Of a stretch of DNA of 64,000 bases, positions 52,599-57,932 are shown piece by piece. The translations under genes and the position numbers were made by a program. Positions within the stretch are counted from its first letter, which is position 1. Every line of letters begins with the position of its first letter. This DNA is from Arenibacter nanhaiticus (lineage in GTDB: Bacteria; Bacteroidota; Bacteroidia; Flavobacteriales; Flavobacteriaceae). The DNA lies in the NCBI RefSeq assembly GCF_900141935.1, contig NZ_FQYX01000001.1:4786-68785 (forward strand). The letters are read 5' to 3'. Under the pieces are notes generated by a model. The model worked only from the letters and a program-made list of their open reading frames with translations, did no database searches and was not told the origin of the DNA.

Positions 52599-54158
52599 AT
52601 GAAAAGTAATATAACTGAAAGGGTTAAAATATTAGATTGTACATTAAGGGATGGCGGATATTATACCAATTGGGATTTTGATAAAGAATTAGTAGAGGAG
52701 TATTGTAAAGCCATGGAAGAGCTTCCCATTGAATATGTGGAGGTGGGATATAGAAGTATTCCTTTAAAGGGATATTTGGGAGAGTATTTCTATTGTCCAG
52801 ACTATGTAATGAAAGCTCTGAAGGAGGCTATGCCAACAAAGAAATTGGTTATAATTCTGGATGAGAAAAATATACGTCCAGAGCATTTGGAAGATTTGTT
52901 AAGTCCATGTTTACCTTATATTACCATGGTAAGGATGGCTATTGATCCAAAGAATTTTAAGAGGGCCATCATACTTGCTAAGGCAGTAAAGGCAATGGGA
53001 TTTGAGGTTGCTTTTAATGTAATGTATATGTCTAGTTGGAAGGAAGATGATTCTTTTTTAGACTTACTTAAAGGCCTAGATAATACTATAGATTATTTCT
53101 ATATGGTAGACTCCTTTGGGGGGGTAATGCCTAAAGATGTTAAAGAAATTATAGCCTTAGTAAAATCCAAGACTAATGTTCCTTTGGGCTTTCATGGGCA
53201 TAATAATTTGGAAATGGCCCTGATTAATACCTTAACGGCTATTGAAGAAGGCTGTATCATGGTTGATGGCACAATTACCGGAATGGGTAGAGGAGCTGGA
53301 AACCTAAGGACAGAATTGTTACTAACTTATCTGAATAGTAAAAACACCCTAAAGATTAAATTTACTTTGTTAAGTGGGGTCGTAGCCTCTTTTGAAAATT
53401 TAAAAAAGCACTATAATTGGGGAACCAATCTACCCTATATGTTTTCAGGCGCCTTTTCTTTACCGCAAAAACAAGTAATGGAATGGGTTGGCATGAATCG
53501 ATATCCTATAGGAAATATTCTTAATGCTTTAAACAACCAAAAAGAATCGGTAGAGGACAATATTAAATTACCAGTACTACAGCGTGAGAAGTCCTTTAAG
53601 AGCGCATTAATTCTTGGAGGTGGTAAATCAGCTAATAATCATAGCCTAGCCATTAAAAAGCTAGCAGAAGGGAATGAGGAGATATGTATTATTCACGCAG
53701 GAGCACGAAACGTCTCCACTTATTTAGAAGTAACTAATAAGCAATTTTACGCATTAGCAGGTTTTGAAAGTGAAAAGTTGTTAAATACAATCGGCGACGT
53801 CTCAAAATTGGAACAGACTTGTGTATATCCACCATTTCCTAGAAATATGGGAACTATAATACCCGATGCTATTAAAGAGATGTCAGTAGAGTTGGAGGCT
53901 ATAAATTTTACAAAAGCTTCTATAGATTCTCCTTTGGCATTAGGTTTTCAAATTGCATTAGATTTGGGAGTGAAAAATGTCTTTTTGGCTGGTTTTGATG
54001 GTTATGATACTACAATTGACCAAACGCAATTTGTCTTAGCTCAAGAAAATCAAAATATACTGAACGACGCCTTGCAAATAAAAGATTTAGAAGTTGTTGC
54101 CATAACACCTACAAAATATAAGAAAGTTAATACAATATCAATTTACAGTATAATATAA
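52599..54158 (+). CDS. Fusion of a DRE-TIM pyruvate-type aldolase with a C-terminal DUF115/GT42-like domain
   Basis: The protein has 519 aa. Residues 1-290 belong to the HMGL-like/4-hydroxy-2-oxovalerate aldolase superfamily: DCTLRDGG (13-20) and FHGHNN (198-203) supply the metal-binding Asp and HxH residues, and GMGRGAGN follows. Such enzymes make or break 4-hydroxy-2-oxo acids with pyruvate. Residues about 335-519 form a second domain with ALILGGGKSA (335-344) and a strand-turn DLGVKNVFLAGFDGY (455-469), resembling DUF115 and GT42 sialyltransferase folds. The next gene, which overlaps it by one base, is a CMP-ulosonate synthetase. Inference: it builds a 3-deoxy-ulosonic acid from pyruvate and an aldehyde sugar. 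What the C-terminal domain does is not known. Confidence 0.72.
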   Translation: MKSNITERVKILDCTLRDGGYYTNWDFDKELVEEYCKAMEELPIEYVEVGYRSIPLKGYLGEYFYCPDYVMKALKEAMPTKKLVIILDEKNIRPEHLEDLLSPCLPYITMVRMAIDPKNFKRAIILAKAVKAMGFEVAFNVMYMSSWKEDDSFLDLLKGLDNTIDYFYMVDSFGGVMPKDVKEIIALVKSKTNVPLGFHGHNNLEMALINTLTAIEEGCIMVDGTITGMGRGAGNLRTELLLTYLNSKNTLKIKFTLLSGVVASFENLKKHYNWGTNLPYMFSGAFSLPQKQVMEWVGMNRYPIGNILNALNNQKESVEDNIKLPVLQREKSFKSALILGGGKSANNHSLAIKKLAEGNEEICIIHAGARNVSTYLEVTNKQFYALAGFESEKLLNTIGDVSKLEQTCVYPPFPRNMGTIIPDAIKEMSVELEAINFTKASIDSPLALGFQIALDLGVKNVFLAGFDGYDTTIDQTQFVLAQENQNILNDALQIKDLEVVAITPTKYKKVNTISIYSII

Positions 54159-54898
54159 TGAAAATAGTAGGAGTTATACCAGCCCGGTTTAAGTCATCAA
54201 GGTTTCCAGGAAAACCATTAATTGATATTGTTGGGGTTCCAATGATTATAAGGGTTGCGAGAATTGTTGAGAAAGCACTGGGAAAAGAAAATACTTATAT
54301 CGCCACAGATGATGTCAGAATTAAAGATGTAGCTGAATCGTATGGTTTTAAAGTTGTTATGACTTCAGGTAATTGTCTAACGGGCACAGATAGGGTATAC
54401 GAATTTTCTCAACAAATAGAAGCGGATATTTATGTTAATGTACAGGGCGACGAACCATTGTTGAATTATTTGGATATTTTGAATGTTGCAAAGGCAAAAG
54501 AACAAAGTTTTGACTATGTAACAAACGGTATGTGTGAAATATCAGAAAATGAGGATGCAAATAACATTAATATACCTAAGGTTCTCGTTAATAAAGACAA
54601 TAAATTGATTTATATGTCGAGGTTACCTATTCCAGGAATTAAAGATGTTAATGCTAAAGACACTCCGAAATATTTAAAGCAGGTTTGTATTTATGGTTTT
54701 AGTAAAAATGATTTGGAATTATTTGGTAGTACTTCAGAGAAGGCTATTTATGAGGGATTTGAAGATATAGAAATTTTACGGTTTTTTGATTTAGGAATTC
54801 CTGTATTGATGGTTGAAACATCAGGCAGTTCCTTGGCTGTGGATGTTCCGGAAGATGTTAAAAAAGTAGAGCAAGAAATTCTAAAACAAAAGAAATAA
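54158..54898 (+). CDS. kdsB: CMP-3-deoxy-ulosonate cytidylyltransferase (KdsB family)
   Basis: The protein has 246 aa. KdsB activates a 3-deoxy-2-ulosonic acid with CTP. PARFKSSRFPGKPL at the start, ATDD, NCLTGTDRV and VNVQGDEPL are all present. kdsA and kpsF-like genes are absent from the window; the aldolase before it could supply the acid. It may be the second kdsB of the genome, specific for the surface polysaccharide. One-base overlaps join it to both neighbours. Confidence 0.88.
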   Translation: MKIVGVIPARFKSSRFPGKPLIDIVGVPMIIRVARIVEKALGKENTYIATDDVRIKDVAESYGFKVVMTSGNCLTGTDRVYEFSQQIEADIYVNVQGDEPLLNYLDILNVAKAKEQSFDYVTNGMCEISENEDANNINIPKVLVNKDNKLIYMSRLPIPGIKDVNAKDTPKYLKQVCIYGFSKNDLELFGSTSEKAIYEGFEDIEILRFFDLGIPVLMVETSGSSLAVDVPEDVKKVEQEILKQKK

Positions 54899-55518
54899 TG
54901 TTAAAAAATATATTATGGGATTTTGATGGAGTCATATTGGATTCCATGGAGGTTAGAGATTTTGGATTTAAGGAAATATTTAAAGGATTTAAAGCTTCTG
55001 ATGTTAAGACTTTATTGGAATATCACCGTCTAAATGGAGGGTTGTCTAGGTATGTAAAAATCAGGTATTTTTTTGAATCTATTTTGAATCAAAGTATTAC
55101 CGATACAGAAGTATTGGAGTACGCTACTAGATTCTCGGATATAATGAGAGAGGAATTGATTAATCCAAAAAATTTGATTGAAGATTCAGTTCATTTCATA
55201 AAAAAAAATCATACCAATTTTAATTTTCATATTGTCTCTGGATCGGATCAGGAAGAGTTACGGTTTTTATGTAAAGAATTAGGTCTTTCGGATTATTTTA
55301 TATCTATTCATGGCTCTCCAACCCCTAAAAACACCTTGGTGAAGGAATTGTTAGTAAAGTATGATTATAATATCACTGAATCCTGCTTAATAGGCGATTC
55401 AATAAACGATTATGAAGCCGCTAGGATCAATGATATTTCTTTTTACGGATATAACTCTATTTCTTTAAAAGAAAGTGGAAATAAGTATATAAAATCCTTT
55501 GATACTTTTTCTATATAA
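54898..55518 (+). CDS. HAD-superfamily phosphatase
   Basis: The protein has 206 aa. Motif I WDFDGVILDS, motif II HIVSGSD, motif III Lys in TPKNTLVK and motif IV GDSINDYEAA mark an active HAD phosphatase of the PGM-like group with a helical cap. Its place directly after kdsB (one-base overlap) suggests that it removes phosphate from a precursor of the CMP-sugar, the job of KdsC or NeuA-linked phosphatases in other pathways. Confidence 0.85.
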   Translation: MLKNILWDFDGVILDSMEVRDFGFKEIFKGFKASDVKTLLEYHRLNGGLSRYVKIRYFFESILNQSITDTEVLEYATRFSDIMREELINPKNLIEDSVHFIKKNHTNFNFHIVSGSDQEELRFLCKELGLSDYFISIHGSPTPKNTLVKELLVKYDYNITESCLIGDSINDYEAARINDISFYGYNSISLKESGNKYIKSFDTFSI

Positions 55519-55542
55519 TAAGTCCGTTTAATCTGAATTAGC

Positions 55543-56958
55543 GTGTTGATAAAAAAAATTATTAATCATTCATTTGTATATGCAGTTCTCCCTAAGCTAC
55601 CTATTTTATTGGGGTTTCTAATTTTGCCGTTAATAACACCTTTTTTATCAGATATTGATTACGGAGTTTATGGCATAGTTTTATCTATAGTAACAGGAAT
55701 AACAGTAATTAAAACACTTGGTTTAGATGTTATACTAATGAATTCTTATATACATCATTGTCATAGTAGCAGATATAAAATAGTTTGGAATGAAATTCAA
55801 GGCTTTATATTTGTTTGGTCGTTTGTTTTAGGTTTATTGGTTACGATATTGCTCTACTTTATTTTACCCGCTGAGGCAGATACAAACAAATATTTGATAA
55901 TTCTGCTGACGGCAATTCCAATTATGCTTTATTCCTCCCTTCAAGTGGTTTCCTTAAAGTATTATCAATTGGCAGAAAAACCGATGGCAATAGGTGTTAG
56001 ATCATTAATTTTCGGAGTACTTACTATTTTCCTTAATTACTACTTTATAGTTAATCAAAAAATTGGCTATATGGGTTGGGTTTGGAGTATGTTTATTGCA
56101 GAAACTCTAACATTTTTGTCATTTATTTATCCTTTATGGATAAAAAATAGGTTATACCCTAATTTTTTCTTTAGAAGGAAAACGATGAAAAAGCATTTGA
56201 AAATAGGCCTACCTCTTGTGCCCCATACTAGTGCTTTTTTTTTATTGGATTTTTCAGATCGGTTGGTCATGCTAAAAATGGGTGTAAGTACGGCAAATAT
56301 CGGTCTGTATGATTTTGCATATAAATTTGCTGGGTATGCCAGGGTTTTTTCTGAAAGTATACACCAAGCCTCAACACCTTTACTTATAAAATCATTTAAG
56401 GATAATCCAAAAAGCCACATATTAAGGGATATTATCTTTTTAGAAAACTACATTGTTGCTTTTGTGTCCTTTACCATTGCAATTTGGTTAAAAGAAATAT
56501 TTTCCATTATGGTAAATAATGAGGAGCTAAGTTTAACCTATAATATGGGTATAATATTAACCATGGCGTATGTTTATAAACCTATGTATACTGCTATGGC
56601 AACAGTCTTCTATTATTACGAGAAAACTAAAGAATTTTGGAAAATTTCCTTTACGGCGGGTGTGGTAAACATTGTTTTAAACATTATTTTTATTCCGATC
56701 TACGGTTTTAAAGCTGCCGTTTATACTACTTTTTTGGCATTTCTATTTATAGGATATGCTGGTTTTTACGTAACTCAATTCAAGAAACTATATTCACCTA
56801 ATTTTAACCCCTTATTGTGGGTAGGTTACACTGTTTTGTTATTAAGTAGTTCATACTTTTTTAGAGATGCAGAATTCATTACTAAATTAGTATTAACCAT
56901 CATTGTTCTCATTTTTACAACCGTAAAGATTATTCCTTTAATAAAGACACTAAAATGA
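55543..56958 (+). CDS. Polysaccharide flippase (Wzx-like, MATE/PST superfamily)
   Basis: The protein has 471 aa and about 12-14 membrane segments. It should flip the lipid-linked repeat unit across the inner membrane. The start must be a GTG at 55543 or TTG at 55546, as the next in-frame ATG lies 65 codons further, past two helices. The LPLVPHTSAFFLLDFSDRLVML region is typical of the family. The stop overlaps the next gene by 4 bp. Confidence 0.85.
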   Translation: MLIKKIINHSFVYAVLPKLPILLGFLILPLITPFLSDIDYGVYGIVLSIVTGITVIKTLGLDVILMNSYIHHCHSSRYKIVWNEIQGFIFVWSFVLGLLVTILLYFILPAEADTNKYLIILLTAIPIMLYSSLQVVSLKYYQLAEKPMAIGVRSLIFGVLTIFLNYYFIVNQKIGYMGWVWSMFIAETLTFLSFIYPLWIKNRLYPNFFFRRKTMKKHLKIGLPLVPHTSAFFLLDFSDRLVMLKMGVSTANIGLYDFAYKFAGYARVFSESIHQASTPLLIKSFKDNPKSHILRDIIFLENYIVAFVSFTIAIWLKEIFSIMVNNEELSLTYNMGIILTMAYVYKPMYTAMATVFYYYEKTKEFWKISFTAGVVNIVLNIIFIPIYGFKAAVYTTFLAFLFIGYAGFYVTQFKKLYSPNFNPLLWVGYTVLLLSSSYFFRDAEFITKLVLTIIVLIFTTVKIIPLIKTLK

Positions 56959-57932
56959 AAGATTTAATTTTTAAATATTTAGGTTTCATATATTCTATAT
57001 ACTTAAAGTATAAAAAGCCTGCTATCTTTAAAACAGAAAAGGGTAAGGAATTCCTTCAGATGTATGCCGAATCCGAAGTGAAATTATTATTTTTTAGGGC
57101 TTTAGCTTTGTTAAAGGGATTTAAATTAATCGATGATTATTCTGATAAGAAAAAGAAATCTGATACAGTGTTTATTTTTGGTAGTGGTGAATCGATTAAT
57201 GAACTGACCGAAAAGGAATGGAATATAATAAAGAAGCATAATTTAATTGGCTTAAATTATTCCTTTGTACACCCAATTGTTCCTGATTATTTTCTTATGG
57301 AGATGATTCCCTTTAAAGAAATGCAGGATTATTTTTGTGAATATACAAAGGATAAATATGCTAAAGTTGATATGTTTTTTCAATTTAAACATATACTTAA
57401 AAGTGGTTTTGATTTAAATAAATATGAGTTTAAAAATAAAGCCTTTGTACACATACCACACCTCCTTCCAACTATTTATCCGGAAATTTTAGAATATTAT
57501 TTTAATGATTTAATTAAATCTAAAGGTTTATCGTTGGCACACCTTGTACATCATAATAGCCATGTTGGGTGTGCTGTTATGTTCGCACAAGCACTTGGCT
57601 ATAAAAGGATAGTTCTTTTAGGTATTGATTTAAATGGTGGGGATTATTTTACAGACTCAGAACAAATTTCAGAATCGTATCCACCAACAAAGGATTATAT
57701 TAAATTAAACAAGCTTAGAAACAAATATAATCAAGTAAAGAATGACTTTAAAGGTAATTTGCATCCCACAATGAATGCCCAATTAATGAAAGAAAGAGGG
57801 AGTGTTTCAATGGATGAGTACTTTAGAGTATACCAGAAAAATATAGTTAATACAAACAACGTTAAATTATATGTAAATAGTGATAAATCAATTTTATCTG
57901 AATTTATAGAAGTATTTGATTTTAAGAAATAA
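56955..57932 (+). CDS. GT42/DUF115-like glycosyltransferase candidate
   Basis: The protein has 325 aa. FIFGSGESI (73-81) and NSHVGCAVMFAQALGYKRIV followed by LLGID (201-225) are close in form and spacing to GNGPSL and SGVYMCAVAIALGYKEIYLS-GID of Campylobacter CstII-type sialyltransferases (GT42); a His in NLHPT (268-272) could match the catalytic His region. GT42 enzymes use CMP-sugars, and a CMP-ulosonate synthetase lies in the same cluster. The acceptor and the sugar are unknown. It may also be a non-catalytic DUF115-like protein. Confidence 0.65.
   Translation: MKDLIFKYLGFIYSIYLKYKKPAIFKTEKGKEFLQMYAESEVKLLFFRALALLKGFKLIDDYSDKKKKSDTVFIFGSGESINELTEKEWNIIKKHNLIGLNYSFVHPIVPDYFLMEMIPFKEMQDYFCEYTKDKYAKVDMFFQFKHILKSGFDLNKYEFKNKAFVHIPHLLPTIYPEILEYYFNDLIKSKGLSLAHLVHHNSHVGCAVMFAQALGYKRIVLLGIDLNGGDYFTDSEQISESYPPTKDYIKLNKLRNKYNQVKNDFKGNLHPTMNAQLMKERGSVSMDEYFRVYQKNIVNTNNVKLYVNSDKSILSEFIEVFDFKK

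Follow-up and report, generated by a model that had tools for sequence, protein, structure and literature searches.

A candidate aldolase-based pathway to CMP-activated ulosonic acids in a polysaccharide locus of Arenibacter nanhaiticus

The DNA considered here, called the window below, is a stretch of 64,000 nucleotides from the genome of Arenibacter nanhaiticus (contig NZ_FQYX01000001.1, positions 4,786 to 68,785 of the forward strand), in which three consecutive genes encode an aldolase fused to a second domain, a KdsB-type synthetase of cytidine monophosphate (CMP)-ulosonates and a phosphatase of the HAD family. With a probability of about two in three, these genes specify a pathway of three enzymes that leads to an ulosonic acid, a 2-keto-3-deoxy sugar acid, in CMP-activated form; for this pathway we infer, from sequence comparison, pyruvate as the donor, a phosphorylated acceptor, the synthetic direction, the identity of the sugar and the role of the second domain of the fusion. 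Across related loci the gene set is conserved, the metal site of the aldolase appears intact by alignment and the synthetases fall into subfamilies of their own; in two carrier genomes neither KdsA nor NeuB, the synthases that use phosphoenolpyruvate (PEP), was found. The original prediction for the window was a single CMP-ulosonate pathway with a GT42-type transferase at the C-terminus of the fusion; its core, a conserved aldolase-synthetase-phosphatase unit without a PEP-dependent synthase of its own, stands, and the GT42 transferase is not supported.

In the proposed pathway, the metal-dependent aldolase domain would add the enolate of pyruvate to a sugar phosphate aldehyde and yield an ulosonate phosphate, from which the HAD enzyme would strip the phosphate, drawing the reversible aldol step forward. 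The KdsB-type synthetase (NeuA-type elsewhere) would then use cytidine triphosphate (CTP) to form the CMP-ulosonate, and a transferase, perhaps the product of 56955-57932, would put the residue on the repeat unit, with export by the flippase. A wider form of the proposal, which we hold to be somewhat better than an even bet, is that CMP-ulosonates are made by a third route that does without PEP, where a reversible pyruvate aldolase with a fused MptE-like domain would replace KdsA or NeuB and would serve two dedicated synthetase subfamilies, possibly towards an undescribed ulosonic acid, in Bacteroidota, Balneolota, Pseudomonadota, Campylobacterota and Bacillota.

Results

Conservation of the gene set

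The fusion (52599-54158, 519 aa), the synthetase (54158-54898, 246 aa) and the HAD phosphatase (54898-55518, 206 aa) are encoded on the forward strand, and they and the two open reading frames (ORFs) that follow lie where they had been predicted, with a one-base overlap at each of the two junctions within the set. The HAD protein matches HAD_2 with an expect value (E) of 4.2e-14; its matches are to models of the PGMB and phosphoglycolate phosphatase types, only HAD-IA scoring above its cut-off, and no KdsC model is among the matches listed for it.

A single scan of public genome contigs, with six peptides of the window protein of which two lie within the C-terminal domain, gave 74 related loci; this choice of query makes the sample lean to relatives of the window protein, and the counts include related genomes that are not independent of each other. 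The genes of the survey are script-called ORFs, and its families were formed by single-linkage clustering with BLAST, each taking its name from the one or two members that were tested. The loci come mostly from Bacteroidota, and also from Balneolota, Alphaproteobacteria, Arcobacteraceae and Paenibacillus. A CMP-sugar synthetase of the PF02348 (CTP_transf_3) type is found within three genes downstream of the fusion, on either strand, in 69 of the 74 loci, 59 of which have it at +1; position -1 never holds one (0/74), and the remaining positions of the survey, eleven in number (-6 to -1, +4 to +8), hold seven synthetases in total; 60 of the 73 next-gene proteins, that of the window included, match PF02348. 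The HAD family is present downstream within +4 genes in 58/74 loci, and synthetase and HAD are both present in 56/74. Five loci have no synthetase within this range: L051 and L070, which stop at a contig end or close to one, the short relative L075, and L047 and L071, where none was found, L047 having an unexplained gap of 576 bases after the aldolase. A survey of this kind had been named as a check on the prediction, and the recurrence of aldolase-synthetase-HAD sets over the 74 loci is confirmed, by which a chance neighbourhood is ruled out.

On a Leisingera plasmid, a full-length fusion is followed by KdsB and HAD, that is, by the same genes in the same order, and the plasmid relatives in Mesorhizobium and Priestia are not long enough to include the second domain and stand in other contexts. 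The fusion occurs in 5/149 genomes of the family to which the window belongs and in 9/395 of its phylum (E<=1e-50, own genome included), a patchy spread that suits an accessory polysaccharide trait.

Aldolase domain

The N-terminal part of the fusion (residues 1-325, 52599..53573, forward strand) is an HMGL-like/DRE-TIM TIM barrel with a helical extension, and it carries the motifs DCTLRDGG and FHGHNN from which an aldolase had been predicted. It matches PF00682 (HMGL-like) with E 4.4e-25 and 89 bits, above the cut-off of 29, and the full-length fusion is modelled with a predicted local distance difference test score (pLDDT) of 93.4. The nearest solved structure is 3dxi (E 9e-117 by sequence; in Foldseek, target-normalised template modelling score, TMt, 0.96 with 56% identity over the aligned part), after which DmpG-type aldolases are the next Foldseek matches, at 16-20% identity. 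Twelve residues (R17, D18, Y21, Y22, E48, R112, D171, H199, H201, N203, R231 and N235) are invariant in 66/66 aligned aldolases. Loss of the metal ligands, which would have spoken against the pathway, is not seen, D18, H199 and H201 being among these residues; the metal-ligand and catalytic Arg roles of R17-D18 and H199-x-H201 are assigned after DmpG. The alignment has 66 rows, with nine of the 74 loci left out, namely L051 (partial), L075 (short) and seven thinned without a measured threshold (L011, L038, L043, L048, L057, L062, L078).

DmpG, the 4-hydroxy-2-oxovalerate aldolase, works with a Rossmann-type partner, DmpF. The fusion shares with DmpG the HMGL-like family, the TIM barrel and the metal-ligand positions, and differs from it in a Tyr21 in place of the base, in the MptE-like second domain and in its polysaccharide context. 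Against a catabolic aldolase of the DmpG type stand the score, which falls short of the equivalog cut-off of TIGR03217 (93.6 bits against 286), and the next gene, which is a CMP-sugar synthetase.

Two types of synthetase

The synthetase nearest to each aldolase row is of the KdsB type in 26/66 rows, of the NeuA type in 37/66 and lacking in 3/66; both types belong to PF02348, yet they are distinct families. The type changes 17 times on a careful aldolase tree, at least 11 of the changes being forced by well-supported branches, and 19 times on a quick tree of all 66 rows, where supported branches force 9 changes or more; for the careful tree four long rows were dropped, which leaves 62, and the bootstrap had not settled. 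Such repeated exchange of the synthetase, with its position kept, is expected if the aldolase makes the substrate of the synthetase.

Both types appear as subfamilies of their own in FastTree trees. Cluster KdsB proteins (35 rows) separate cleanly, with support 0.902, from 26 housekeeping KdsB proteins of the window genome and 25 carriers, and the aldolase-linked NeuA-like proteins (43 rows) separate as cleanly, with support 0.90, from 23 other NeuA/PseF-like ones; four of the 35 KdsB rows and three of the 43 NeuA-like rows are refetched copies that were assigned by contig position after the trees had been seen. The window KdsB scores below the kdsB equivalog cut-off of TIGR00466 (141.9 against 155.2) and above that of the broader subfamily NF009905 (277.7 bits against 255). 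That it is the housekeeping copy can be rejected, as the other PF02348 gene of the genome lies on contig C78 and the two copies, which share 34% identity, fall in separate clades.

The CTP and two-metal residues P8, R10, R15, K19, R79, D98 and D229, matched by position to those named in PMC3149649, are kept in both KdsB groups. Eight positions differ near-uniformly, that is, in 85% or more of each group (cluster/other: C73/H, G124/L, L150/A, M153/F, K162/R, Q175/H, C177/G, V228/I). The His that gives way to Q175 in the cluster proteins is a presumed Kdo (3-deoxy-D-manno-octulosonic acid) contact. The part of KdsB that holds positions 124 to 177 is assigned to dimerisation and Kdo binding in PMC3149649, and six of the eight differing positions fall within this part. 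The pattern suggests, short of proof, that cluster KdsB acts on a substrate other than Kdo.

One locus, L030 (11541-15146), has a NeuA-like gene, a KdsB-like gene and two GT29-like genes around a single aldolase, with NeuB upstream.

KdsA and NeuB in carrier genomes

That KdsA and NeuB are lacking, as first predicted, holds for the cluster, and for NeuB no match was found anywhere in the window genome; on another contig (C66, the window being on C36) a single KdsA scores over the cut-off, and the genome holds two PF02348 genes. Tests were made on 49 carrier genomes, picked for better-looking assemblies. KdsA is present in 45/49 (E<=1e-60), with no match at this threshold in L026, L054, L072 and L032, and no NeuB match was found in 14/49. 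All 19 genomes with the KdsB-type set have two KdsB proteins over 200 bits, and the seven NeuA-type genomes tested, which are those without NeuB, have one at most. Exactly one KdsA accompanies the two KdsB in 18 of the 19, none in the remaining 1.0 Mb assembly, and a second KdsA in none of them.

Neither KdsA nor NeuB was found in three carriers, L032, L026 and L072. The first is a 1.0 Mb assembly, possibly incomplete, and absence there therefore says little; L026 is a metagenome-assembled genome (MAG) of Balneola, and L072 is an isolate of Paenibacillus paeoniae, whose sole PF03102 hit is a 3-deoxy-D-arabino-heptulosonate 7-phosphate (DAHP) synthase (466 bits against 335). In L026 and L072 the set itself offers, as judged from sequence, no other candidates for making the ulosonate than the aldolase and, in L026, an additional HpcH aldolase. 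A supply of the cluster synthetase by KdsA or NeuB, which would have told against the prediction, is contradicted by these two carriers, one of them a MAG, and the separate subfamily of cluster KdsB makes it improbable.

C-terminal domain of the fusion

Residues 326-519 (53574..54158, forward strand) form, as judged from an AlphaFold2 model, Foldseek and PF01973, an MptE/DUF115-like domain, which is present in nearly all relatives. Modelled alone with AlphaFold2 (pLDDT 93.3), it has as its best solved Foldseek match 8sd5, the MptE/HPPK of Methanocaldococcus jannaschii (probability 1.00, TM 0.48-0.55, E 1.3e-3), followed by the SteA fold (probability 0.98-1.00, TM 0.50-0.54) and, lower down at rank 4, by the GT29 sialyltransferase 6apj (probability 0.95, TM about 0.42); no Foldseek match reaches E 0.001, and no GT42 chain is among the best 50 rows. 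PF01973 (MptE-like) is matched in 42/66 family members at E<=1, with a best value of 6e-7. The best PDB hit of the domain profile is the alpha-2,3-sialyltransferase 2p2v, a weak one at E 0.09. Three Gly, one Asp and one Tyr are invariant in the family alignment and a His is so at no position; the catalytic His of GT42 is accordingly not conserved. The "GT42/DUF115 features" first noted in residues 335-519 are borne out at the superfamily level as DUF115/MptE-like, not as GT42, and a GT42 transferase is not supported, given the MptE fold as best match, the lack of an invariant His and the lower rank of GT29. The domain belongs to a wide MptE/sialyltransferase-like fold group in which a transferase activity is not supported for it, and it is probably not the transferase of the pathway but binds a substrate or a nucleotide for the aldolase, for channelling or control.

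Candidate transferases

The gene at 56955-57932 (forward strand, 325 aa) is a candidate ulosonate transferase by a weak MptE/GT42-like assignment. Its match to PF01973 (MptE-like), E 0.0012 with 19.1 bits against a cut-off of 34.6, is among the weakest; by sequence similarity it has no hit to any GT42 structure, this match below the cut-off being the only one, and the label "GT42-like" is a weak one for it. Homologues occur in L007, L019, L020 and L044.

Elsewhere, GT29-like genes are found at +3 to +5 in six loci (L025, L028, L030, L040, L045, L065); two members tested match PF00777 with E 5.9e-12 and 8.4e-16, and the family profile matches the sialyltransferase 2wml with E 0.0011. These are bacterial relatives of the GT29 sialyltransferases, which are best known from animals. 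Polysialyltransferase-like genes (PF07388; E 2.3e-8 and 2.6e-9 for two members) are present in 13 loci, which makes 19/74 with either kind, and nine more loci besides the window have MptE-like genes, for a total of 28/74. In L073 (11555-12412), from a single-cell genome of Pelagibacteraceae, the next gene is MptE-like (E 2.8e-12) and a NeuA-like gene stands at +3.

Discussion

Alternative explanations

Conceivably, the KdsA of the genome supplies cluster KdsB, which would then be a further CMP-Kdo synthetase, with ordinary Kdo going into the polysaccharide and the aldolase having another role, for example in trimming or modification of the sugar. Outside the cluster, the window genome indeed holds KdsA and a further PF02348 gene, KdsA is general among the carriers (45/49), and Kdo is known in variable parts of capsules, according to PMC12887879. 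Against this, cluster KdsB forms a separate subfamily with a changed sugar-binding part, for example Gln175 in place of a His that is invariant in housekeeping KdsB, the same slot holds a NeuA-type enzyme in 37/66 rows, no second KdsA was found, and KdsA is unmatched in L026, L054, L072 and L032 (the last perhaps incomplete), so that we regard ordinary Kdo as unlikely. The aldolase could also cleave, in salvage or balancing of an ulosonate made elsewhere, as NanA does for sialic acid; aldol reactions are reversible, and NeuB lies near the set in 10/74 loci. This explanation is weakened by the 14/49 carriers without a NeuB match, and by L026 and L072, which lack KdsA as well, so that no enzyme searched for would supply the ulosonate to be cleaved; the adjoining phosphatase and CTP-consuming enzyme fit synthesis, and the sets of the window, L026 and Leisingera sit among sugar-nucleotide or glycosyltransferase genes. 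Cleavage is for these reasons distinctly improbable in our view. We think it very improbable that the fusion is bifunctional, its C-terminal domain being a GT42-type transferase of the same ulosonate that the aldolase makes: the weak profile likeness to 2p2v and the presence of 6apj among the Foldseek matches agree with this, but MptE ranks first there, the domain has no invariant His, and the separate sialyltransferase-like or MptE-like genes near 28/74 loci would be redundant.

The three-enzyme synthetic pathway, for its part, has to be weighed against several observations that do not favour it. No HAD gene is found within +4 in 16/74 loci, 13 of which have a synthetase, and the 74-locus survey brought out no gene for sugar supply as conserved along with the set. 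In six loci (L014, L026, L029, L045, L061, L062) another pyruvate-type aldolase, from the HpcH/HpaI family, is encoded at +1, as it is at +6 in L053, with PF03328 (HpcH) E 1.4e-34 for L014 and 1.3e-28 for L026; a model with a single aldolase leaves these six loci unexplained, and the active-site positions of the fusion are intact in the 5 of them that were aligned. The usual base of DmpG is His21, and its position holds a Tyr (Y21) in 66/66 aldolases; the catalytic chemistry could therefore differ from that of DmpG, the metal site being kept and the base possibly unlike that of DmpG. Shuffled synthetase labels give 19.2 changes on the careful tree, where 17 are observed, and 20.3 on the quick one, where 19 are observed, and labels so close to random could mean a product that differs between loci, or a looser coupling. 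NeuB lies in the neighbourhood of 10/74 loci and PF03102 (NeuB) is matched in 35/49 carriers at E<=1e-3, hence many carriers have another source of ulosonate. Finally, L026 being a MAG, the absence of KdsA and NeuB there is weaker evidence.

Relation to known systems

The Kdo pathway proceeds from the synthesis of an ulosonate phosphate by KdsA, through a HAD phosphatase (KdsC), to activation with CTP by KdsB. The set described here would resemble it in the ulosonate phosphate, which is proposed, and resembles it in the HAD phosphatase and the KdsB-type activation; it differs in having a DRE-TIM-type aldolase, in place of the PEP-dependent KdsA, as the enzyme of the carbon-carbon bond, in a KdsB of a separate subfamily and in a HAD protein without KdsC among its listed matches. 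The same three-step logic is found in the nonulosonic acid pathways (NeuB-NeuA, or the synthase of the 9-phosphate of KDN, 2-keto-3-deoxy-D-glycero-D-galacto-nononic acid, with its phosphatase and synthetase). Likeness to these lies in the NeuA-type synthetases and in the sialyltransferase-like genes near 19/74 loci, and unlikeness in the lack of NeuB from the core set and in the clade of their own that the aldolase-linked NeuA-like enzymes form. Without the defining PEP-dependent synthase, the set is therefore filed in neither the Kdo nor the KDN pathway.

With its 56% identity, 3dxi, the N-terminal domain of BVU_2661 from Bacteroides vulgatus, is a member of this aldolase family; the entry dates from 2008, when it was released under the name "putative aldolase", and a literature search under the code 3dxi gave, judged by titles, no paper on the BVU_2661 structure. 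MptE, the archaeal 6-hydroxymethylpterin diphosphokinase (DUF115), is the top fold match of the C-terminal domain; the domain is here part of an aldolase fusion within a polysaccharide locus, and no Foldseek match reaches E 0.001 for it.

A literature search found no paper on the gene set, as far as titles and the openings of abstracts tell and with most subscription journals outside its scope. As far as is known, bacteria make Kdo and nonulosonic acids by way of PEP-dependent synthases. The gene set looks, from its sequences, like a compact and previously unnamed route by which an acidic surface sugar is made and activated. If the proposal is right, a pyruvate aldolase would open a new way into the acidic surface sugars of the Kdo and sialic type, 3dxi would have a role, and counts of NeuB or KdsA in genomes would overlook part of the producers of such sugars.

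Setting of the locus and minor observations

After the three-gene set, on the same strand, comes a gene for a Wzx-type polysaccharide flippase (55543-56958, 471 aa, GTG start; PF01943 Polysacc_synt, E 2.4e-13), followed by the candidate transferase at 56955-57932. On the 5' side of the set lie genes of the deoxythymidine diphosphate (dTDP)-rhamnose type (dehydratase/epimerase, PF00483, PF00908, PF04321), and on the 3' side genes of the O-antigen ligase/polymerase type together with genes of the glycosyltransferase and initiating sugar transferase kinds; this combination of dTDP-rhamnose-type genes with polymerase-type and glycosyltransferase genes marks the region as a surface polysaccharide locus of the Wzx/Wzy type.

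Between the KdsB and HAD genes of two loci (L033, 12354-13517; L078, 12276-13295) there is a gene for a BNR-repeat sialidase-like protein, of which further examples lie near the set in L034, L036, L038 and L063, with PF13088 matched in two tested members. Contig C23 of genome G082 has a copy of the fusion gene (139373-140890) with one in-frame TAA, for which decay or a sequencing error is possible. Locus L074 comes from a MAG labelled Christensenellaceae, in which the aldolase groups with those of Bacteroidales, perhaps because of a binning error. Two copies of the fusion gene, about 20 kb apart, are present on contig C1 of genome G305 (3156604-3158142 and 3177214-3178749).

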